NCBI RefSeq assembly: GCF_027595985.1
Contig: NC_073307.1
Span: forward strand, 121,437,678 to 121,501,677
From: Sorex araneus
Taxonomy: Eukaryota; Chordata; Mammalia; Eulipotyphla; Soricidae
DNA: 64,000 bases
Direction: 5' to 3'
Shown: positions 36,210 to 56,286 of the stretch, piece after piece
How the letters are laid out: each line of letters begins with the position of its first letter
Position numbering within the stretch: the stretch's first letter is position 1
Notes under the pieces: generated by a model
What the model was told of the DNA's origin: nothing
Seen by the model: the letters and a program-made list of their open reading frames with translations, nothing else
The model's database searches: none
Made by a program: the position numbers and the translations under genes

Positions 36210-37960
36210 CCCCTTAGTTGAGGAGTGGACGAGGAGTTCACTGGGGCAGTGTGCTCCAAGCCCCACATAGAGCTAGGCTTCGATATTTGTAAAGGTCAAT
36301 AATGACTGGAGAAGAGAGAGATCATACATTCTGACCTACATTTCCTTCTCAAGGCTAAATTGGAATAATGGCAGCTGACCCAAAAACATTTCAAAATGAA
36401 GAGAATTCCTCCATAAAGGGGGTTCACACTCACAGCAGGGCAATTGGGATTTTCAAGGGGGGCTTCCTTAATCTACCTATTTCCATCAGATTCCCCTAGA
36501 TTTCACCACGTTTAATTCTTAAAGAGAAAATGGTCAAAGTTCCATCCACTTGAGCTGCTTCCTGCTGACACAGGGACGCTAACCCTGCCTGCACAAGGGA
36601 TGAAATCTCAAGCTACCTTGATTTTTAATGAGCCCCAAGCAATGAATTTGAAAGATCAGATCAATTAGGTTAAGGAACGCTACTTTAAAAGGACCAAACC
36701 TTGGAGACAGATAACAAATGAGAAATGCTCAAATGCTCAGGGTAGCAGAACTAATGATCAATAGCACAGGAAGCAGAGTTCTGATTTACTTCCTTCTTAC
36801 TACTCTGTCCATTCCTTTCACTAACATTTCACTGCATTAGTCCAGATGTCAGTAATTTTCAGCTCCCCTGATACACCTTGTTCCAATGCCCATTCTTCCT
36901 CTTCTGCAGAGTGTTCTAGCTTAGAGGAAATGTTCTCTAAATGGGGTATTAATCCCATGATGTAACAATAATTGAGAGCTGGTAAAAAACTCTGTTCTCT
37001 CTATATGTATTAACTAAGTATGAATACTTAGAACCAGTTTAGATGTCCACTATCAGAACCTTAGACAATTGACAGGCTGGAGGAAAGCAATTCATCCTGC
37101 CCTTTGGGCTAAGATCTCCCCTGGTAAAGGTTTGGCTTCCACTTTTCTGGCCAGACTGGTGGAAACCTGTTCAAAATTAAGTTTCTTTGTAGACAACACA
37201 GCTTACTTACTAAATTACCCAATTATCCAATCACCTTTGTAGAACTAGAATCTAATTCTTGTAGAAACAAGGTTCTCTCTCCTCCTTCATCTTACATTTG
37301 CCAGACAGCTTAACAAACCTGACTTGTTCTTCTGCATCAGCAGAGCAAGATAGAAGAACTCTCCATTTGGGGTACCCTGTTACTTACTGAGAAGTCCTGT
37401 GGATTGGTCAAAGACAGAGCAGGAGACACCCCAATAACGGTATTCCGTGTTTTGCCTCACATCAGGCCTATGTCAGGCTCAACCCTAGATGTGAAGATCA
37501 GGTCCCACAATGAACTAGATATAGAGCCTTCAGGTTGAAATGGGTATGACCTCTAACCTCCATAGAACTGTACTGGCAGTCAGGAATCCATCCCATCTCT
37601 TCTTTAGAACTGGGAGATATTTCAGCCTTCAGTATTTGACACTGTGGGTGGGGCCTGGGCTGAGTCTGTCATTGCAGATTTCCAGCTTCCTCATTTTCCA
37701 CGGCACAGACGATGTCCAATCCTTCCTTAAGCAGGCCTGCCTTTAAGGTCTGTCCCTGTCATTTAGACCAGTCCCCTGACTCTTTCCCTGGAAAAGGACT
37801 TTTGGGGTGCCACAGCTGGTTTTCCTGTCAGCACCAGGGTTAGACCCTATTGCACAGAGGAAAGGCTTTTGTCTGCATTCATGCAAACATGCATAGTGCC
37901 TTAATGCTTCATGGCACTGAGGAGAAAAAAGCACATATTTCATCCTCACTCACAATGAGA
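36210..37960 (-). mobile_element. ERV family X fragment (minus): internal 3' part plus LTR start
   Basis: The reverse complement aligns in order with 49675-51600 of the provirus on the plus strand. Shared blocks include the sequence near 37850 versus 49730 (CTTTCCTCT-TG-AATAGGGTC), GGGTACCCCAAATGGAGAG-like (37370 versus 50230), GGGATTAATACCCCAT-like (36945 versus 50730) and the PPT-to-LTR junction GTGAAATCT-AGGGG near 36515 versus 51530. No reading frame is intact; nothing like pol or env is recognised in it. It shows that family X exists outside the provirus. Confidence 0.75.
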
Positions 37961-39640
37961 TATACCTGTTTGCTATGGGTCCTAGTCAGAAGAAGCATTG
38001 AGTTCTGTAGAAACAGAATATACAGTTTAGCAACATCATGTCTAATTCACTTAGTTCCATGTTGAAAACCTTGATTTCTAATGATCTAAGAGCATATAAC
38101 AGGAGTCAGGAAACTAGACCAATTCTGCAGATAATTTAAAGAATTTCTTATAACAATAGTTTGCTCACAGTTTTCTTTATGGCTTTATCTGCCACGAAAT
38201 TTGTAAAGAAGTTGCTAATCACTATCTTGTTTATCATAAGTGAACTATACTCTGCAGTACTCTTTCAAAAGCATTACTTTGGTGTTATGTTTTTGTTTTT
38301 AGATATTCAGAAGGTTTCGAGGGTCTGGTGCCACCAGCAGGTCAACCTGTACCTTGGGGCAAGTGCATCAGCAGCCTGATGGTGCCTTCAGACTTCCAGG
38401 TACCCCAAAGTTGCTGCTGTGCATTTGGCCAGATCCCAACAACTTGGGGCCAATTTTACCAAGAATTTAGACAGCCAAAAGTTATGTATGTGGGAGACAC
38501 ACCCATAAGTCACCTCCAGCTCAGCTATATAAGCTCAAAGCCTCCTTCCCTCTCGGAGAGCCTGGCAAGCTACCGAAGATATCCCGCCCGTATGGGAGAG
38601 CCTGTAAAGCCACCCATGATGTCTTCAATATGCGCAAAACAGTAACAACACCGTGGTCTTCATGTTTCTGGAATAAGCAGATGCCATTGGGCTACACTAG
38701 CATGCGACAGGGACTAATGGAGACGTTACTGGCTCCCGCTCGAGCAATCGATTAACAACAGGATGACAGTGATACAGTGACAGTGATTCAGAAGGTTTAC
38801 AATGCTAACAAAGATCTTATAACATAATATCTACTTGGTAAAAGTTCACTTTACACTAGAAACTTTATCTTTAGAATTCCAATTTCTAGGGAAACAGATA
38901 TAAAAAATTAAAAATCTCACAGAAAATGGGATAGTTATTCCTCATTTAAAAATAGGCTTGGGCGGCTCATAGCCATGAGGAAGTCACACACTTCCTCATA
39001 TTTAAAAACCACTAAAGCCTGTAGCGGCTTGAATTTCAAAAGTGACTTTTTTTTTTTAGTACAAGAAAGCTGGTCTGGAACCTCAGCAAGAAAAGTAAAT
39101 ATCTTTAACTTTTATCAAGGCACAATTCTTGGTTTCAGTAGCTCCTGAAATTTTGGTTACCAACAATCTCAAAAATAAAATATTGGTAGGGTATGAATTT
39201 TGCAACTAATTCTATAATTTTAGAAACTCACATTTTTAATCCATTACTCTTTAAACTTCTTCTTATGTACCACATTAATTTCAACTCACATTCCAATAAT
39301 CCAATGCAAATGCAAATATACATCAACATATCAGCATAAGAAAACCCTCAAACCATCTATTTATGAGATGTAAGAAAAGCTACTTTGACTTAATTTTAAA
39401 GGTTCTTAATTATTTCAAATCATAAAGTTTTTACACCAGATACTTTAACAATTTCACAATTCAAACATGCTTTCAGACACAGAAAGAGGCCATTGGTACT
39501 CACCAAACTTTCAAATAGCAACATTAGAAAATAGACTGTCAATGTTTATGAAAGCATGAAAAAACTTTGTTTTGATGTAGCCTGATTTTATCTTTGCACT
39601 GTCTCAAAACACTCTTGTTTATTTTTGGGTTTTTTTGTTT
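37961..39640. other. Unassigned DNA with a disrupted SINE
   Basis: 38540-38790 is a 5'-truncated long-body SINE (plus), CTCGGAGAGCCTGGCAAGCTACC to GACAGTGATACAGTGACAG, with an internal ~75-nt foreign stretch at 38650-38715 also seen at 60150-60190. 38975-38999 is a 10-bp perfect hairpin. The rest is AT-rich with no gene seen. Confidence 0.5.
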
Positions 39641-44001: not shown

Positions 44002-45136
44002 GAACTCATTCCAAATAAGTTATATTAATGGAGATATAAGAAGAAAAAAATAAAGAAAACAATTTGATGGAATGTAGAGTATAAGAGATCCATCATCCAA
44101 ATAATGTCCCAGACAGTCAGTTCTCTGAACATGCTAAAGAAGACAGAATCTTCTGCCTTTACCACCAAATTTCATTCATATATTCTATACTGATTATGTA
44201 TCCAGAAGGAAATACCACTATGTCTTAAAGATGGATGCCCATTTCCTCTGACTCTGCTGATCCAGGAAAATGAGACATGAAAATATCGTGAGGACAGCAA
44301 TTTGAAGTGCTTTCTGCCTGCCAGGTTGTGAGTTTGCTGCCACACAGGTAGGTAATGAGCAAAGCAAACACTACCTACAAAACCATCTCACTGGCCCCTG
44401 ACTTTGTATCTTTTCTTGTTTCACTCCTTTGTATACAGTGTGAGGTTCATGGATGTGTTTTAGGACAAAAACACATAAATGGCTTTGGAAATGTGCTTGA
44501 TAAGCTTACCTCCTTCTTGTTTTTCCTTTGTGGAAAGCTAAGTCCTGTTGAGAGGAAGTGTCTAAAGAGATTCATCTTTGTTTTGAAAATTCTCTGCCCC
44601 TCAGACAAGCCCTCAGAAGGAATGGAAGTTGCTAAGAGGAAGGCTTATCAAGTTTCCCAAGAGCTCCCATGAGTTCCTGTTCAGGGACCTGATGTCAACT
44701 GAGACCACAATGTCTTTGGTGTCCTGACCACTCTGGGGATGTGTCTCAACATTAGATCAAACCTCTACCTCACGTTGTTCATCTCAACTGTCATCCGGAA
44801 CACTTCCCTCCTAGTGGTTTTTGTGGATTCTCTCACTGACACCCTTGTGTGAACAGCAACAGAAAGCACCGTGAATTGTCTCTATGGAGGCTTATAATTA
44901 GGAATAAACTGCACGTTCCTTCTCTGATATTCATTCTCTGACTTGTTTAAATTTTGAATTATCAAGGCAATAAGTCATGCGTTTTCTTTATCATTTTCCC
45001 TTTAATTGGCCACAGAGTTTGTCAACTGATATATAATCTACTGGTCCTGTTTCCAGAAGCTGCAGTTTGGGTTTTTAGGACAGTGTGTGAAGAGCATAAT
45101 TTAGTCTATTTTATCATACATTGGTGTTCTGAGACC
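44002..45136. repeat. MRGPR 3'-flank duplication block a, copy 3 (left part)
   Basis: Homologous to 25130-26230 and 34260-35760 in the same orientation (CAGAATCTTCTGCCTTTACCACC, CTCTGCCCCTCAGA, CAATGTCTTTGGTGTC). It is interrupted by the provirus at 45137 and resumes at 54652. No gene. Confidence 0.85.
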
Positions 45137-45442
45137 TGTAGGGAGCCAGAGCACATGGAGCAAAGATGGCGCCGACGTCCGGCTGCCCTAGGTAATAAAT
45201 AACCTCCAGAGCGCGGGCCCCGGCATCGCCCCCCATGGGGTGATTGGAGGACAGCCAACTGGCGAGCAACACGTCAGAAGTGAGGGGTCTTCTCTATAAA
45301 AAGGGTATCGCTCTGAGGGTCGGGGCCTTCCTCCCCCACTGGTGTACGTGTGGAGATCTCCAATAAACTTGCTGCAGAAGGACCCTCAACCGGTGTCGTC
45401 TCTCTTTGCTGGCGAAGGGAAACCGCGACAACGCGATTTACA
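45137..45442 (+). repeat. 5' LTR of the provirus
   Basis: 306 bp, TGTAGGG to TTTACA. TATAAAAAG begins at 45295 and AATAAA is at 45362-45367, giving a short U3-R-U5. It reads base for base the same as the 3' LTR. It carries a GC-rich proximal part (GGCGCCGACGTCCGG) with a CRE-like ACGTC. Confidence 0.95.
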
Positions 45443-45444
45443 AC

Positions 45445-45462
45445 TGGTGCCGAAACCCGGGA
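45445..45462 (+). promoter_or_regulatory. Primer binding site, tRNA-Phe type
   Basis: TGGTGCCGAAACCCGGGA, exactly complementary to the 3' end of mammalian tRNA-Phe as I know it. It lies 2 nt after the LTR. IAP-type elements use the same tRNA. Confidence 0.88.
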
Positions 45463-45465
45463 CGC

Positions 45466-45476
45466 CGGGTAAGTTT
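45466..45476 (+). other. Candidate major splice donor of the provirus
   Basis: CCGGGTAAGTTTC, with GT at 45469-45470, a strong donor directly downstream of the primer site. It would pair with the acceptor at 52065 to make env mRNA. Confidence 0.6.
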
Positions 45477-45828
45477 CATTCGCACCCTGGGGAAGGCCCC
45501 TTCGTTCCGAAGGGAGGGTTCAGAACTGCAGGACGGGGTGGCTCGGAGAGGCAGACTACGGCCTGAAATTTTAGAAAGGGTCCAGGATAGTCTGTCAGAA
45601 ACCGAGCGGTCGGGTACCCGAAACTAAGAAAAAAGGATTGCCGATAGAGGCAAGGGCGAGGGAAGGGGGAGGGGAGAGTCCTCACCCCGCGCACTCGCAA
45701 CAAAGGAAAGTGGACCGCCCGGAGGGGGCGAGAATGAGGCGGGAGAGGAGGAGGCCGCACCTCCCCCCACAGTTTACACAACTTGCTCTAGACTGGGTGG
45801 GCCGAGGAAAATCTATCCCTGGGGGGAT

Positions 45829-46296
45829 ATGGCTGCAGCCAGCCTGAAACCCAAAGAGAGCTCTTCAGAAGACTCCCTTTCGAGCTCTGAAGAAGAGCAA
45901 ATTCTAGACCAGGAAGCGGCACGCTACAAAGCGGCACACAGCTACGAAGCGGCACGCTATCGCCCCCCTGACCTCCGTAATCGAAACCGAAGCAGCAGAA
46001 CGCACTTACCGCGCCCCGTACCCTCAGCTCCCCCTCCCCCGCCATACGCACGGGGAACAGAAGGAGCCCATGCATCCCGAACATCTTTATTTTCTGCTGA
46101 CCTGCATAAGCAGATGAGACTAGCCTTTCCTGTCTTTGAGGGAGATGGGAATGGAAGAGTTCATGCTCAGGTAGAATTCAATCAGATTAAAGAGTTGGCA
46201 GAAGCGGTCAGAAAATATGGGGCAAATGCCAATTATACCATTTCCCTACTTGAAAGACTGGCCAGGGATAGGATGACCCCCCCCTTTTGCCTCTAG
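45829..46296 (+). pseudogene. Betaretrovirus-like gag fragment
   Basis: 155-residue open frame. The first ~30 residues are Ser/Glu-rich (SSEDSLSSSEEEQILDQEAA), like the phosphoprotein part of betaretroviral Gag, with a local repeat of EAARY. PSAP at 65-68 overlaps PPPY at 70-73, giving TSG101-type and NEDD4-type budding motifs side by side. Residues ~98-150 resemble the start of betaretroviral capsid (IKELAEAVRKYGANANYTIS). Matrix is absent: the frame begins Met-Ala and no Met-Gly matrix frame is seen in the leader at 45463-45828. The capsid is cut after about 50 residues at a C run near 46280. Capsid C-terminus, nucleocapsid, protease and pol are missing. Confidence 0.8.
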
Positions 46297-46745
46297 ATTG
46301 CTAGCTTCTTATTAGAAAGAGCCGGATGTACATTGTAGCAACCCCATTGTCAGGGGGACAAGACCAAAGGTAATGTGGACTCCCGTAGGGCAGGTTTAAG
46401 AATTTCTGTGTGAATGTACTGCGTGGGGTGCGCACCGGAATGAAAGAGGACCGGTCAGAATGAGTGCAGGAGTGTGATTTGTGCAAGTGCCTTTAGTGTG
46501 TGTGTATATTTGTCTCATTATATTTCTCTTAGTTATGCTTATTATTATCAGCAGAGAAGTCAGGAAAATGCAAGATCATGTGGTTGAGTGTTTAATAATA
46601 TCAGGAATGAAAAAGAGTGTCGCTAAGGTGGTCTATCCACCTCAGAAGTAGTCTTGATCTTAAAATTGTAACATCTGACAACTTAGGTTTCAACAACTTT
46701 GTCATGGATTGTTTTGCCGGCTTATATCAACAAAAGCGCTTTCTT

Positions 46746-47444
46746 TTTTTTTTTTTTTTTTTTAATTTTATTTATTTTTAATTAGAGAATCACCATGAGG
46801 GTACAGTTACAGATTTATACACTTTTGTGCCCATACTTCCCTCATACAAAGTTCGGGAACCCATCCCTTCACCAGTGCCCATTCTCCACCACCCGTAAAC
46901 CCAGCATCCCTCCCACCCTCCCCAATCCCATCTCCCCCCGACCCCACCCTGCCACTGTGGCAAGGCATTCCCTTCTGTTCTCTCTCTCTAATTAGCTGTT
47001 GTGGTTTGCAATAAAGGTGTTCAGTGGCCGCTGTGCTCAGTCTCTAGCCCTCATTCAGCCCGCAACTCCCTTCCCCCACATGGCCTTCGACTACAATGTA
47101 GTTGGTGATCGCTTCTCTGAGTTGACCTTTCCCCGGAACGTGAGGCCAGCCTCGAAGCCATGGAGTCAACCTCCTGGTACTTATTTCTACAGTTCTTGGG
47201 TGATAGTCTCCCACTCTGTTATTCTATATACCATAGATGAGTGCAATCTTTCTATGTCTGTCTCTCTCTTTCTGACTCATTTCACTCAGCATTGACCAGA
47301 ATCCAAAGACTATCCACAGAATGGGAAAGGATATTTACACAATACCCATCAGATAAGGGGTTGATATCAATGGTATATAAAGCACTGGTTGAACTCTACA
47401 AGAAGAAAACATCCAACCCCATCAAAAAATGGGGCGAAGAAATG
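46746..47444 (-). mobile_element. L1 insertion with 5' inversion, inside the captured segment
   Basis: T-rich tail and reverse L1 3' UTR to the ORF2 end (46746-47293), then a switch to sense ORF2 sequence (47294-47444, matching 7480-7625). It is flanked by a perfect 14-bp duplication, AAAAGCGCTTTCTT, at 46732-46745 and 47445-47458. Confidence 0.95.
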
Positions 47445-47666
47445 AAAAGCGCTTTCTTGACCCAATTTTATAACCAGGAAACTGGCTGGTCAGACAGAGA
47501 AACGGGGAGCAATGTTCCCAATCGGCCGACAGGGCTCAATTTGCCCTGGGGACTGCTCTTTCCTTTCTCTGTCTATCAGTTTTTCTCCCTGCCGTTTTTG
47601 AAGGGTCAGATCGATCGATCAACTGCAAATGTGTGCACGTGTAGTGGTGTTTTTTAGTCAGTTCAT

Positions 47667-47686
47667 TGTCTGTCTGTCTGTCTGAC

Positions 47687-47716
<30 letters not shown>
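47667..47716. repeat. (CTGT)n microsatellite
   Basis: About twelve CTGT units with one interrupting GA. Confidence 0.95.
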
Positions 47717-47717
<1 letters not shown>

Positions 47718-50700
47718 GGAACACTCGAGTGTTAGAGCTAGTTTGAAGTCATTAATTCTTAGAACTGAGCAAACAAAATCAAGGGAGTCAGAGTGATATG
47801 TAGTCCAGCAATTTAAAAGATTTAGGTATCTTTGGAACTTGTTAGATCAGGTTTAAAGAAAGATTTCTAATCAGAATGTGGCGACCACGAAGGGATTGAA
47901 ATTCTCAATCTAGATTTCTTATTGGAAGAACATTAATGTTTATTAACAGTTGTAACTCTTCTGAAATTCGTAGTCAGTACTATCTAGGAAGAGCTGAGGA
48001 AGTAGCTCCTAAAACTAGCCTAAAACTAAAGTGAAATAACAATTCAGAGGATGCAAGGCTTTATCTTACAAGCCTCAGCTAATTTTAATGAAGAATTTAG
48101 CTGTTTTTAAAGCAACAGAGGTATAGAAACCACCAAAATAGACAAAGTTTTCTTATGTTTCCATAAACATTGATGGTCTGAGTGTTTTTTTTTTCTTTTC
48201 TGTGCTAAAATCAAAGGTTGGTTTAAAAAAAATATATAAAGGGGGGGTGGAGGCTCTCTCTCTGTATTTGAAAGGATGTCTGTATGGTGGACTTGTTTAA
48301 AGTTAGAGAGCTCATGATTTGAAATAACTAAGATACAAAAACTATTGGATTTAAGCCAAAGAAGGTTTACTCATGTTTTATAAAAATTGATGGTTTAAAG
48401 GTCTTATGCTGTTGTGTCAGTGTACATATGCATCTGCATTGGATTATTAGAATGTGAGCTGAAATAATTGTGGAAAAGCAGGTTCAAAGAGTAATAGTTT
48501 AGTTAAAACATGAGTTTCTAGAGTTATGAATTTGGTTGCAAATCTTATCCTACTGGTATTTTATTTGAATCTGAGACTTTTGGTAACTAAAATTTCTAGA
48601 GATACTTAGCAAAGAATTATAATAGATTAATCTCAGGTGTCAGCCTGATAGTCTGAAGCCATAGCATTGTGCCTTGGTTAAAGTTTGAGATAAGAATGGA
48701 GTATTTCATGGAAAATGTGGGAAATTTTACTGACTATTGTTAAATCAGTCTGTCTAGTACATGAAAATGCATGTTATTATTCTGATAACTTTATTCATTG
48801 CAAAGCTTTGTCACCAGATATCATATCTAGCTCTGACCATCACATAGAAGTTTGTATGCAAGTGTGAGATCCTTAATGTTTTATGGTAATCTATGAGTGT
48901 TTTAATCTTTATATTTGTGTTTTCCTAGAAATCAGAATTCTAAGATGTCTCCTGGTTAATTTCTAATGTGGAGTGAACCTTTGCCCAATGAATATGTCGT
49001 AAGAACTTTAGTTGTGAGCATCTTTAAAGTTGTTGAATATCTATAGAACTGACCTAATGCTTTTGAAATAACACTGAAAGTAGTTTTGTCATGTTAAATG
49101 AAATGATTGGTAATTTGTGCCCAAACTTGGAAGATCATGTTGTACTAAGTTCAGTAAAAATAAGAGTTTAAACTTGTGGGACTATAAAGAATATAGATGT
49201 ATGTCTTAAGTCAGAAAGATAATGGATGCAGATATCATCAGTTGGAAAAAGGAAAGAAACTGATCACTGTTTTAAGAAACTCTTTAAATCACATGCAGAA
49301 TTGTTCTAGTATGTTTTTGGTAGGATCTATGGAAAAGATATTGGATGGATTGTCTGGAACTCCTGTTACAGTGCTCTTAGATTATTGAATTCTTCAAAAG
49401 TTGTGGAAAATCAAGTGTTTTTTTAAATGGGATTAAATGAATTAGACATGTTTAACTGTACACTGGACTCCCAGTACAGTGCTCTTATTAATGGGAAGTC
49501 AAGGTTTTCAACATGGAATTGAATGGGTTAAACATGATGTAAATTGTACACTTTTCCTCTACAGATTTTAGCTTCTTTGACTAGGACCCACAACAAATGG
49601 GTGTGTTGCATCTCACTGTGAGTAAAGTGAAATGTTTGCTTTTCTCTTCTTTTGTACCTTCAGTATGTTTTTGATGCTTCATGGCACTATGTTGGTTTGC
49701 ATAAATCCAGATAAAAGTCTTTCCTCTCTGTAATAGGGTCTACCCCTCATGCAGACAGGAAAATCAGTTATGAGACCCCAAAGCCCTCTTTCAGGGAAAG
49801 AGTCAAGGGATTGGTCTAAATGACAGGAGCAGGTATTTAACAGGTACTGTTTCAAGTACCCTACAAACCTCAGGGAGACCCTAGAGGCCAGTTGGCTTAA
49901 GGAAAGAATGGAAATCATCACTGCTATGGAAAATGAGAAATCCGGCAATCTGTGTGACTGACACAATCTGGGCCTACTCAGCATCAAGAAAAACCCTGGA
50001 AACCAGGATCTCTCCCAGCCCTGAAAAAGGGAGGGGATGGACTCCTTTCTGCCAGGATGCATCTACGGAAAAGGCCACCTCCAGTTCTACCTGAAGGCTT
50101 GAGACCATCCAGTTCATCGTGGGACATTTATGGCCAGGCCTGGGTAACTCTGACGTGCCACATAGAATTAATGCCATTATTGGCGTGCCTCCTGTCTTTA
50201 GCCAACCCCCAGGACTTCTCAGTAAATAATGGGGTACCCCAAATGGAGAGTTCTCCAATCTTGCTGTATTTATGCAAAAGAACAAGTCAGATTTGTTAAG
50301 CCATCAGGCAAATTTTAAAATGAAGGTGGAGAGAAAACCATGTTTCTGTAACTTGCTTTTTAAAGAATCAGATTCAAATTCTACAAGAGTAATCTAGTAA
50401 ATGTATTCTAATCTGGATCTAAAAGGTATCCCTTTTGGGTAATTCAGGTATAATGTGTTTTGCTGACTGTAAAGTAAGCAGCCTAGTCTTTGGGACTCAA
50501 TGTTGAACATGCTGTCACTAGTCTGACCAGGGTATTGGAAGCCAGAGCTTTAGTGGGGGGAACCTCAGCTCAAAGTGCAGAATTAATGCTTTCCCCCAAC
50601 CTGTCAATTGGCTACAGTGCCAAGTGTGGACATTTAAACTGGTTCTAAGTATTCACTTTTAGTTCTATGAACACAGTCATTTGGAGAGAACTAGAATTTT

Positions 50701-51546
50701 AACAGCTCTTAATTCTCGTTCCATCAAGGGATTAATACCCCATCCAGAGAATACTCATCTAAGATATTCTGCAAAAGAGGAACAATAGGCATTGGAACAA
50801 GGTTTTCAAAAGGAAATTGATAAAGGGTTACACTAAGCTTCCAACACAAGTGAAAGCCATCTTTCATGGAAAGGAACTCAGAACTGTGCTTTCTGTTTCA
50901 TTAATGAATTGTGGGCCTCCTTTCCTAACACTTGTAACTTCAAGGAACTTGCCGAGGAAAGGATTGGCAGATTGACATGCAAATGATCAAACGCTCATAT
51001 ATTCAAGATACAAACATCTACTGCTTCCAAATGACAGCTTCAGTGGATGGGTAGCTTTTCCAACCTGAGAAGCGGTGTGGTGCTTCTAGGCCACTAGAAA
51101 AATCTGAACATAGGAAGTCATTTTCTATCAACCAATGGGTGAAGCAGTTATTCCTTTCCATTGTTTTTATGACAGAAATAGGTGTAGGATTATGTTGTGT
51201 TGGTTTCTGCTGCTTTAATTTCTGTCTCACCATCCCAGGCAGAATGTTATATAAAACTGTAGATCACTCTGCTCTTGCTAGATCAGAGGCAATATTCTAC
51301 TCCAAGGTCCAATCATTTCAAAGTGACATTCCTCAGTCTAATTGATCTGATCTTTTCTTTCAGATAACTTCAGGATCCCAACCAGTTCATTGCCTGGGGC
51401 CCACTAAAACTAAGGTAGCATGAGGTTTCACCCCTTGTGCAGGCAGGGCCAGCGCCCCTTTGTCAGCATGAAGCAGCTCCAGAAGATGGACCTTCAGCCA
51501 TTTTCCCCTTAAAGATTTAAGGTGGTGAAATCTCTAGGGGGGAATA

Positions 51547-51953
51547 TGATGTAGGCAGGTAGATAGGGAAAGGCCCCTGGCAATGAAACTTAGATCATCA
51601 AAGTCTCCGGGGAGGAGAATCCTGAGACCCCTCCCCCCCTGTGAAACCGCACCTGATAAGACCTTCAACAGACTCTGAGGATAGTAGACCCCTCCCCAGG
51701 AGGTTCCCCAAAGAAGGCTATCACCACTCCCAACCTCCCTGGTATACTTGAAAAGAAACCACATGTGGGTGGGGGCAGGTTGTAAAGAACCTATAAAAAA
51801 CAGCCCAATAGTCCATTCAAGGCTCTCTTTATCTTTGGAGGAGCCCGAGTTCTTTCTTGAGCGCGTTACTCCTACTGCTTTCTCCTTTTCCACTTATCTC
51901 TTCCTCCTTCCCTAAGACCTTCTAAATAAAGTCTGTTACTTCAAAAAAAAAAA
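51547..51953 (+). repeat. Internal LTR (U3-R) of family X with poly(A)
   Basis: It begins just after a PPT-like AGGGGGGAATA and has a TATA box at 51792, AATAAA at 51925-51930 and an 11-A run at 51943-51953. No U5 or primer site follows: the sequence passes directly into the env leader. Ending at R plus A is the form of a retroviral RNA 3' end, not of an integrated LTR. Confidence 0.75.
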
Positions 51954-52042
51954 TTTAAGCTACTTAGCTCAGGGTCATAAGGAGTGAGAGTTTTTAAAGA
52001 TTTCCGAGTCCGCAGAATGCTCCAGGGGGAACCCCTGAGAGG

Positions 52043-52065
52043 GATTCTCTCTTTTCTTCTTACAG
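52043..52065 (+). other. Splice acceptor upstream of env
   Basis: TTCTCTCTTTTCTTCTTACAG, a strong polypyrimidine tract with AG at 52064-52065, six nt before the env ATG at 52071. Confidence 0.75.
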
Positions 52066-52070
52066 AGAAC

Positions 52071-53812
52071 ATGCGGCTCGTCGTCCGGTGCCGACCCTGC
52101 GGGTTTGCAATGATGATCCTGCTGCTGACTGTGCAACCCACGGAGGCCGGATTGGGCCGGCCGGCTGACCCTACACGCCTCCTACAACAGCTGTATGGGA
52201 CCCCGTGCAACTGTCAGGGAGGACAATCTTCGGTGACCCCAACGAGTTACACGAAAACCGTGGACTGTGGGACTCTGACTATATATCTCGTCACGCGGCC
52301 CAGTGCTCGGGGCGGACTAACCCAGTTTTGGCAGTGCGTGCCCAAGCCTACTTTTATAAATAAGGGGGATCCCTGTCCTCAAAACTGTCAAGTGGTAGAC
52401 CAGATGAATGCCATGTGTTATACCAGCTATTCTGAATGTACCCTAGGAGGAAAGAGGTATTTTAGCCCCATATGTCCTACGAGGGAACGTTCGGGGGTGA
52501 CTGGTCAGTCGTCCCCTCCAGCAGAGGGAACCCTAAGTATGCTGCTGCCTCATGCACGGCCCCAGTGGGCAAAGATGCCTGCTGGCCCACGCGAGCCCCC
52601 TTACACGTTTCCGATGGGGGGCCTACTGATGTGGTCCGGGAGGTGGAAGTGGGGCAGAAAATTCAACAGCTGATTCTTGCCCGATTTCCTCAGATTGAAT
52701 ATCATCCCCTGCTACTCCCGAAACCCCGGGGCATGGATTTGGATCCCAGTACTGAGAACATTTTGGCCGCCACACATTCGGCATTGAATGTTACTAACCC
52801 CACCCTGGCCGAAGATTGCTGGCTATGCCTACCATATGGTGACTCCTGGCCTTTGGCAGTGCCCTCTTCTTTAGCTAATGACTCCACCCCCTCTGCTGTG
52901 CAGGTTGACAACTGCTTTGCCAGCCTTCCCTTCAAGGTACAGCCTCTTGGCTTTAATTTTAGTTATTGCTATTATAGGGTTGCTAATAATGATTCGTATG
53001 ACATTGATGTCGGGGTGCTGTCTACCTCTGGGTGTGAACAGTCTATTAATAGCGCTGGCCCACTGTGTGCTGGGACCAGCCGAGTTTTTGTGTGCGGCAG
53101 CAATCAGGCCTATGCCCTTCTCCCGACGAACTGGACTGGCCTTTGTGGGCTAGCTATGCTACTCCCTGATATTGACTTACTTAAAGGTGATGAACCAGTC
53201 CCCATCCCATCTATAGATCACATTGTCCCTCGCCATAAGCGAGCAGTGCAGTTCATTCCATTACTACTGGGCCTAGGTGTCTCCGCGGCCGTGGGCACGG
53301 GTTCGGCGGGATTGGCCACAGCCCTTTCCTCCTACTTCAAGCTGTCCCAACAACTAGCAGACGATGTTACTAAAGTTTATCAATCCATTAAGGATCTCCA
53401 AGACCAAATAGATTCCTTGGCAGAAGTGGTACTCCAAAATAGGAGAGGTCTGGACCTCCTCACTGCGGACAGAGGGGGAATTTGCCTGACACTTCAGGAG
53501 AAATGCTGTTTTTATGCCAACAAGTCGGGTATAGTGAGGGACCGGGTTAGAAAGCACCAAGAAGAATTAGAAAAAAGGAGACATGAGTTTTATGAGCGCC
53601 CGTTTTGGTCGGCGTGGGGGGGTGTGTTGCCCTATCTCCTCCCCCTTTTGGGGCCCCTTGTTGGAGCATTATTACTGATCTCCTTTGGTCCTTGGGCATT
53701 CCAACGCCTAACTCAGTTTATTAAAGATCAGGTGAATGCCGTGACCTCACGCAAGGTGGAAGTGTACTATCACCGCCTGGTACAAGCCTATCCAGAAGAA
53801 GAGTTTGCATGA
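52071..53812 (+). pseudogene. env of gammaretroviral/type-D kind, split by one frameshift
   Basis: The surface-subunit N-terminus reads from ATG 52071: a signal peptide (AMMILLLTVQPTEA), then a Cys-rich start with CNCQGG. This frame stops at 52673. The second frame is open from 52466 and coded to 53812, so a 1-nt shift lies about 52466-52500. In the second frame, counted from Met 52472: SDGG-PT-D-VV-R at 47-56, CWLC at 116-119 (the SU-TM disulfide motif), furin-type RHKR at 254-257, fusion peptide from ~258, helical region, immunosuppressive-type segment ~322-338, CX6CC (338, 345, 346), membrane span ~384-407, 39-residue tail. Four or more sequons lie in SU. The kind is that of viruses with betaretroviral cores and type-D Env. 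Except for the shift, no stop is seen. Confidence 0.9.
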
Positions 53813-54322
53813 TTTTTGTACAATAGCCTATCCTGCATAATACCGTGCCTTGTTTTTGACTGAATCTTGGCAGAGTGTAAGTTGGCGTAGGTGATGATGC
53901 CTAGTCTTTTTAGATCGTTTAGTCCCAATGGTTGCTCAGCCTAGGTGGTCTGTCCCCCCGCCGGAGGCATCGCCGCTTTAAATCAAGCTGCTCCGTGCTT
54001 TCTTTTATGCTGAGTGTAGCCCCTGCACACTTGGGATCTGTGGATCCATTGCACGAGTTTGGATGCACCGGCAATGGTCTCAGGGAAGGGTGTCAGACTA
54101 GATGGTACTGCACTAGGTCTCTCTCCTCCCTGACCCAGGGCGACGAGCCGCTTGCATAGGGCCGCCGTCGAAATTTTGCCCTGCCTGGAAAAGCGGACGG
54201 CGGGACAGGAGGAGCCTCATCAGATCCTGAAGAGGGACCCGTTGAGGCCACCTCAGTCCCTGGTATTTTTACAGGCAGTGGTGTCCGTCGCCCCCTTTCT
54301 CGCAGAGACCGGCTCCTTAGTA

Positions 54323-54339
54323 AAGAGATAAGGGGGAGT
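54323..54339 (+). promoter_or_regulatory. Polypurine tract before the 3' LTR
   Basis: AAGAGATAAGGGGGAGT directly before TGTAGGG of the 3' LTR, the plus-strand priming site for reverse transcription. Confidence 0.9.
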
Positions 54340-54645
54340 TGTAGGGAGCCAGAGCACATGGAGCAAAGATGGCGCCGACGTCCGGCTGCCCTAGGTAATA
54401 AATAACCTCCAGAGCGCGGGCCCCGGCATCGCCCCCCATGGGGTGATTGGAGGACAGCCAACTGGCGAGCAACACGTCAGAAGTGAGGGGTCTTCTCTAT
54501 AAAAAGGGTATCGCTCTGAGGGTCGGGGCCTTCCTCCCCCACTGGTGTACGTGTGGAGATCTCCAATAAACTTGCTGCAGAAGGACCCTCAACCGGTGTC
54601 GTCTCTCTTTGCTGGCGAAGGGAAACCGCGACAACGCGATTTACA
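54340..54645 (+). repeat. 3' LTR of the provirus
   Basis: 306 bp, identical to the 5' LTR on my reading, followed by GAGACC. Between the env stop and the PPT (53813-54322) lies about 510 nt of non-coding DNA with GC-rich parts. Confidence 0.95.
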
Positions 54646-54651
54646 GAGACC

Positions 54652-55330: not shown

Positions 55331-55716
55331 TTATTTCTTATGTATTTGTTGATTTACAGAGATGTTTGTTCATGTGCCAAGTACATAATACAAAATGTAC
55401 ACATGTAGAATTATTTATAGTATCATCACCAAAAGTTAATGTGTCCAACACACTGGATAACTTGCAATCTATGTGAACAACAGCTCCTGTGTAGATGTAT
55501 AAAAAATAGCAATACATTAGTTTGGAATGGTTTCTAAGTTAATACCAATTTTTGTTAAGACTATACTTTTTCTTTTTTTTAATCACCCTGAAATACAGTA
55601 ACAAGGATTTCATGTTTGAATTTTAGTCATACAATGATCAAACACCAACCATCCATCAGTCCACATTTTCCACCCACAATGTCCTCAGTAAAATTAGTTC
55701 AGTCATTCTTTGTCTG

Positions 55717-56117
<401 letters not shown>

Positions 56118-56118
56118 G

Positions 56119-56286
56119 CTATTTGTGTCACACCTGGAGATGCACAGGGATTACTCCAGGCTCTGCACTCAGGAATTACTCCTGGTGGTGCTCAGGGGAC
56201 CATATGGGATGCTGGGAATCGAACCCTGGTTGGCTGCATGCAAGGCAAATGCCCTACCCACTTTGCTATCTCTCCAGCACCGGCCC
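56119..56286 (-). mobile_element. SOR-type SINE (minus)
   Basis: GTCACACCTGGAGATGCACAGG body, then CATATGGGATGCTGGGAATCG and the head in reverse, GCATGCAAGGCAAATGCCC, GCTATCTCTCCAGCAC. Confidence 0.93.

Follow-up and report, generated by a model that had tools for sequence, protein, structure and literature searches.

A shrew provirus contains the polyadenylated 3′ end of another retroelement's RNA, probably acquired by template switching

Introduction

How could the 3′ end of one retroelement's RNA, together with a poly(A) run, come to lie in the interior of another retrovirus? This question is raised by a locus of the shrew Sorex araneus. The whole stretch of DNA analysed (the window) is 64,000 nucleotides long (G000:C6:121437678-121501677), and a genome of 2.41 Gb was searched. 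An earlier interpretation made from the letters of the window (the sequence-only reading) had described the end of a foreign endogenous retrovirus (ERV) and a run of A inside a provirus. Here, X is the family of the foreign ERV, X′ is a subfamily, and Y is the segment to the left of X′. Proviruses with the LTR and gag of the window element are called A type, and relatives without X are called B type.

Organization of the provirus

The features of the window are listed below.

45131–45136: left copy of the target-site duplication, GAGACC
45137–54645: whole provirus
45137–45442, plus strand: 5′ LTR of A type, 306 bp, identical to the 3′ LTR
45445–45462, plus strand: primer binding site TGGTGCCGAAACCCGGGA, recognized by eye
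45628–46283, plus strand: gag reading frame, ending at the left junction, with the start of Gag_p24 (PF00607, 4.4e-08)
46277–46284, plus strand: C run with the left junction inside it
46285–47500, plus strand: Y, ~96–98% identical to B-type proviruses; X-related from 46596 on (81–89% to three X pieces)
46732–46745 and 47445–47458: 14-bp target duplication of an L1, AAAAGCGCTTTCTT
46746–47444: L1 insertion, apparently twin-primed
46746–47292, minus strand: L1 piece, probably the L1 3′ part
47293–47444, plus strand: L1 piece from ORF2 (ORF2p match, E 3.4e-15)
47500–48300, plus strand: X′ subfamily segment, mostly 94–100% identical per 50 bp
48350–51942, plus strand: 3′ end of family X with internal region, polypurine tract, U3, TATA box and R
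51534–51543, plus strand: X polypurine tract, with U3 starting at about 51547 (by eye)
51792–51800, plus strand: X TATA box TATAAAAAA, recognized by eye
51925–51930, plus strand: X polyadenylation signal AATAAA
51943–51953, plus strand: A11, where the poly(A) end of X meets the A tract of a B-type leader
51954–52003, plus strand: X′-related stretch before the env leader proper
51981–53812, plus strand: env (TLV_coat), two overlapping frames, broken in the window copy
54340–54645, plus strand: 3′ LTR, 306 bp
54646–54651: right copy of the target-site duplication, GAGACC

The provirus is bounded by its own LTRs and a 6-bp duplication, and its interior contains a foreign RNA end with poly(A). This part of the sequence-only reading is confirmed by the LTR pair, the GAGACC repeats, the junction sequence and its recurrence in the genome. 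As the two 306-bp LTRs are identical, integration was recent. The element combines a 6-bp target duplication with a betaretrovirus-like Gag_p24 match, and it is a putative class II (IAP/beta-like) provirus; its primer binding site presumably resembles tRNA-Phe and is IAP-like.

From left to right, the element comprises the A-type LTR and gag, the C-run join, Y, X′, X, the join between poly(A) and the A tract, and the leader with env. Identities calculated per 50 bp (with the copy at C1:194.73-194.74 Mb as the X reference) are highest to B-type elements up to ~47.50 kb, then to X′ up to ~48.30 kb, and then to X, at 96–100%. An alignment over a longer stretch gave just 88–91.5% identity to X′ because the identity changes piecewise. 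The insert had been ascribed to one other ERV family. The contribution of X stands, but the cargo has several sources (Y, X′ and X), and comparison found no source for positions 46285–46595. The A run had also been thought to pass directly into the env leader. Leader and env do lie downstream, but the first ~50 bp are X′-related (positions 51947–52003 align to X′ with a score of 48, the best of 500 letter shuffles scoring 31), and the leader proper is located further to the right.

The L1 insertion is located within Y; L069 and L070, both of B type, have the empty site. Of the 38 distinct A-type copies compared, the window copy alone contains the full-length insertion, with weak or short partial matches in L060 and L068. 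Two further repeats were observed around the provirus: an old X relative (67–87% identical in pieces; window 36458–39362, minus strand) ∼6 kb upstream, and a long degenerate TTTC/TTCT repeat array just downstream of it (window 55686–56150).

Recurrence of the junctions in the genome

At the right junction, 12 nt separate AATAAA from A11, which is followed by TTTAAGCTACTTAGCTC / TTTAAGCTACTTAGC. Of 933 candidates, 40 were scored, and this junction was matched over its full length at 36 of them, window included; the order R–AATAAA–A(n)–leader is present at at least 35 sites in the genome. The genome counts given here are minimum values or vary with the pattern used. In the 25 X-type copies that were read, the A run before the first other base comprises 7–38 residues, and none of the 25 joins retains a U5 remnant. 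L021 and L023 differ slightly just before the A run, and part of U3-R is missing in L023. For the left junction, 40 of 361 places were scored, and all 40 matched. Other genomic copies carry both junctions: downstream of 26 of these 40 left joins, on the same strand, a right join of X type follows at 4.7–5.7 kb, which shows that the recombinant spread after joining. No leader motif was found within 12 kb of the remaining 14. Chance, misassembly or a single-copy accident is ruled out by the recurrence of the junctions (36 of 40 on the right, 40 of 40 on the left).

Family X and its polyadenylation site

The R region of X was found at 353 sites (up to three mismatches, control 3), and LTR ends that continue into U5 at 309 (up to one mismatch, control 0). 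In X proper, R is followed by ACTGCTTGTCTACTCC, the U5, in 11 of the 14 ends read, including both ends of four LTR pairs 6.3–6.5 kb apart. The genome-wide and the individually read ends thus uphold the assumption that U5 normally follows R in this family. The other three of the 14 ends contain poly(A) instead of U5, and one of them, L124, is cleaved ∼6 bp further on.

Poly(A)-ended X sequences were found at 91 sites (up to one mismatch, control 0), of which 35 lie within 150 bp of the leader and 56 elsewhere; with the one mismatch allowed, a few of the 56 read CTTCAC or CTTAA rather than CTTCA. All 22 off-leader ends that were read (20 fetched of the 56, with L123 and L125; L124 was excluded) have their poly(A) at the same base as the provirus and pass from A into other DNA; over the 56 sites as a whole, poly(A) starts at this base or within a base of it. 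X RNAs are therefore polyadenylated at TTACTTC/A, a site that is fixed independently of the provirus, and the X segment of the provirus ends there. These sites, 35 at the leader and 56 elsewhere, also rule out that the A run is a mere local expansion. Since X ends elsewhere have either U5 or poly(A) at the same place, the A run in the window is, as judged from these comparisons, the poly(A) tail of a family X RNA.

The off-leader poly(A)-ended copies look like L1 retrocopies of X RNA, and in a same-strand comparison no two of the flanks of the 20 fetched copies were alike. By eye, both L123 and L171 run into a SINE-like repeat. Retrocopying of X RNA seems to have been frequent. Two R variants, AATAAAG and AATAAAA, are found among the poly(A)-ended copies (L123, L125 and L169–L188), which suggests two waves or subfamilies.

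Several observations concern the family at large. The exact X marker is located inside four U5-bearing LTR pairs 6.2–6.4 kb apart (among eight pairs, with 100 of the 309 places listed). An identical variant of the marker with two mismatches is clustered at G000:C3:220.5-223.7 Mb and C7:3.7-6.5 Mb (100 of 114 places listed), perhaps as a result of segmental duplication. In the X′ elements L161 and L162, translation by eye upstream of the shared part gives MGQNTSTPLSLTLAHW, a class I-like start of gag, and L164 aligns with both over this region.

The acceptor: leader, A(n)T(n) tract and B-type elements

The search for the leader motif gave 95 sites (control 0), 68 of which (28 + 40) were covered as sequence and 12 as alignment rows alone. 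Forty of the 95 belong to the right-junction list and comprise 36 full X-type joins, the X-type join with a deletion in L023, and three B types (L024–L026). At all 40 sites fetched from the 55 leader sites away from X joins, the leader is preceded by A(n)T(n), and the tract itself by Y-derived ends of several kinds, not by the end of X. In B-type relatives, most of pol is already missing, and apparently non-coding Y is joined to the same leader through A(n)T(n). The three B-type copies that were followed further back contain only remnants of pol: by eye, L069 and L070 contain a protease-like frame and disrupted pieces resembling RT and RNase H, followed by ATTGCCACCCCCCCC and Y, and L071 is like them. 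The LTR region of these three differs from that of the window, with 79–91% identity in U5 and leader. As B-type elements lack X and already lack most of pol, X was most likely added later, into Y. The sequence-only reading, in which X replaced pol in one capture in this provirus, does not hold: the join is present at at least 35 sites, and relatives without X were already short of pol.

At the position of the leader tract, X′ has the sequence GGTAACAAAACTTTTTAAAGCTACTTAGCTCAGGG, so the A tract and the ∼50 bp that follow it look like X-family sequence. Y appears to come from an X relative, with the poly(A) end of X joined inside it. An A-rich tract before env in relatives had been considered evidence against a captured RNA end. 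The acceptor does have such a tract of its own, but on the X side U5 is missing and the sequence ends at the poly(A) site of X.

Five upstream ends meet the tract, with small variants of each counted once: GAGATAAC, CTTGTCCTAC, GTTTGGTT, GATAGTC and the CTTC of X. In three of them the donor has its own A run at the join (GTTTGGTT and GATAGTC, both inside Y, and X). The two Y-derived ends coincide with A runs inside Y of L069/L070, which indicates that A-to-A joining removed parts of Y; these two ends could also be deletions within one RNA. A more speculative idea, which we regard as doubtful, is that A(n)T(n) before env is a reusable docking site, at which T-ended minus-strand cDNA would re-anneal to any A run, poly(A) tails among them, and the centre of the element would thereby be exchanged again and again for the 3′ end of any co-packaged polyadenylated RNA.

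The left junction and variation of the cargo

A probe from A-type gag matched 84 sites (control 0), 29 of them outside the junction lists. Twenty of the 29 were fetched: eight continue gag with ATGACCCCCCGAGAC, nine have the C run and Y, and three are of a deletion type, D. All eight intact-gag A copies contain C6 at the position of the left join, and three B-type copies contain C8–9 there. At both joins, therefore, a short sequence is common to donor and acceptor (the A tract and the C run). In the D type, the join of gag to X lies near ATGGCCAAGGCCAC, and X appears to have been captured here a second time, independently. The leader motif was not found within 12 kb downstream of any of the eight intact-gag sites, nor of the 12 other fetched gag sites. 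Because it is also absent near these 12, its absence near the intact-gag copies is weak evidence, and points only faintly to env having come with Y.

Another left join is present in L163 (C49:10700-12600), where a stretch that resembles pol (YMDD, by eye) passes straight into Y at a point that differs from the C run. Two leader sites lie 4.0 kb apart on one strand (G000:C1:107647205 and 107651217), as do two gag sites at 7.2 kb (G000:C1:257816706 and 257823884); both pairs are possible tandem or nested proviruses.

The cargo at 47.6–48.2 kb was compared in 38 distinct A-type copies (39 rows, L054 and L061 being one locus), for part of which the right join is shown. Ten copies are X′-like (seven of these rest on a partial stretch), eight are X-like, and mixed classes contain nine, seven and three copies; the classes, about five for 37 of the 38 copies, were set by eye from the identities, with L065 left unclassed. 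Since the cargo differs among copies, homologous exchange with X-family RNAs has probably occurred repeatedly.

A template-switching origin and its alternatives

We consider it highly probable that reverse transcriptase assembled the central cargo by switching templates between co-packaged RNAs, and that a recombinant lineage, probably a non-autonomous one, resulted. Minus-strand synthesis on a B-like RNA would have proceeded through env and the leader to the A tract, and then transferred to the poly(A) tail of an X RNA. X would have been copied from its 3′ end, followed by a return, by homology, into X′-like and Y sequence. In the last switch, synthesis would have moved at the C run to the matching C6 of an A-type gag RNA. 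Minus-strand transfer can produce all of these joins, which are directly visible in the DNA, and the order of the switches is the presumed one. They may have taken place in one round or in several, the latter being suggested by the varied cargo among copies. The product would then have spread, presumably with enzymes supplied in trans. In this process X would have been taken only to its poly(A) site, leaving behind U5 and any downstream poly(A) element located there, and the loss of U5 may explain why the internal AATAAA is tolerated. The exact U3 donor was not found: two U5-bearing X copies are 83–95% identical in pieces within 50874–51744. Another X piece is 98% identical over 48677–49027. 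Poly(A) also occurs at the junctions of captured oncogenes.

An improbable alternative is that L1 inserted a copy of a polyadenylated X RNA at the A/T tract of a B- or A-type provirus, the left edge being erased by later homologous exchange with X and X′ RNAs. X RNAs do look like frequent L1 substrates, given the 56 off-leader poly(A) sites and the 22 of 22 ends that enter other DNA, and the join has poly(A) at the X cleavage site. The tract in the leader, TTTTAAG, is similar to the L1 target consensus, but on the strand that would give the opposite orientation. In the window, no target duplication was seen to the left of X, in keeping with the sequence-only reading, and the left side passes homologously into X′ and Y, although later recombination could hide such an edge. 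In addition, exactly three T precede AAGC in 22 of the 25 X-type joins read, as expected of one inherited junction. Template switching, favoured from the start over L1 pasting, fits the missing duplication and the homologous passage better.

It is very unlikely that an X provirus or solo LTR integrated into a class II provirus and later lost its U5, with the A run growing at the break. X is a numerous LTR family, as its 353 R-region sites indicate, but the break is located at the very base where X copies elsewhere have poly(A) (22 of 22 read among the 56 sites), no second X LTR was found in the window provirus, and U5 is kept at none of the 25 right joins. Insertion of a whole X provirus is ruled out by this absence of U5, compared with 309 U5-bearing X ends. 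That the A run is a microsatellite native to the leader with a coincidental X end, or an assembly artefact, is extremely unlikely. In its favour, A(n)T(n) also stands at this place in relatives that lack X, and A lengths vary. Against it, the join recurs at dozens of unlinked places, and X ends at its poly(A) site; the native tract is likely the acceptor rather than a complete explanation.

Comparison with known recombinant elements and implications

The closest known case is recKoRV of the koala, a recombinant of koala retrovirus and PhER that is present in 15 copies in one animal (PMC5696478). Its described structure comprises a 5′ LTR, leader, truncated 5′ gag, a 4.9-kb non-coding ERV 3′ end with the 3′ LTR, the env end and an LTR (PMC5696478). 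In both elements, the LTR and 5′ gag of one element are kept at the left, the centre is the 3′ part of another ERV (including polypurine tract, U3 and R in the window element), and the product has spread to multiple copies. In the published description of recKoRV, the 3′ LTR is given without mention of U5 or of a poly(A) run, and 'polyadenyl' is absent from the main text (PMC5696478). The X end of the window element, in contrast, stops at R, and the poly(A) in place of the absent U5 sets the element apart from the recKoRV type proper. The shrew lineage further differs in joining an A tract that is present in relatives, in its left join at a C run, and in a mosaic cargo that varies between copies.

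In the D type of cattle ERVK[2-1-LTR] and in mouse ETn/MusD, the centre of a competent ERV was similarly swapped for old retroelement sequence, with gag and env (or pol) retained as flanks, a proposed spread in trans and pervasive recombination between types; the account of these elements describes no RNA-end signature (PMC10924933). Retroviral capture of host RNA and oncogenes, including patch repair, likewise involves switching into co-packaged foreign RNA with microhomology at the junctions (PMC4997597). In the shrew, by contrast, the cargo is a retroelement 3′ end, and the genome still contains both the donor and the acceptor family. In LTR-mediated retroposition (Tan 2016, as summarised in PMC5408686), cDNA is also placed between LTRs by switching at microsimilarity, whereas here the cargo is an ERV transcript rather than a gene mRNA and the product was amplified. 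HERV mosaics and env snatching offer further recombinant proviruses, some of which proliferated after recombination; that recombination was mostly between related groups, with secondary integration, and 'polyadenyl' is absent from the main text (PMC4724089). In the open-access literature, a poly(A) junction inside an ERV was not named in the titles or abstract openings found, a result that depends on the wording of the query.

When a retrovirus has captured foreign RNA, the event usually has to be deduced from its final product. In the shrew genome, the donor family is still present, as are the acceptor lineage, relatives with intact gag and dozens of products, which allows the joins to be located closely. 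The question of how unrelated sequence enters retroelements thereby becomes testable by comparison between species, and the case suggests a route by which elements without pol keep renewing their cargo. In summary, the RNA end was most likely joined in during reverse transcription and the product then multiplied to dozens of sites, so that a retroviral template switch can be followed to relatives that the same genome still contains.
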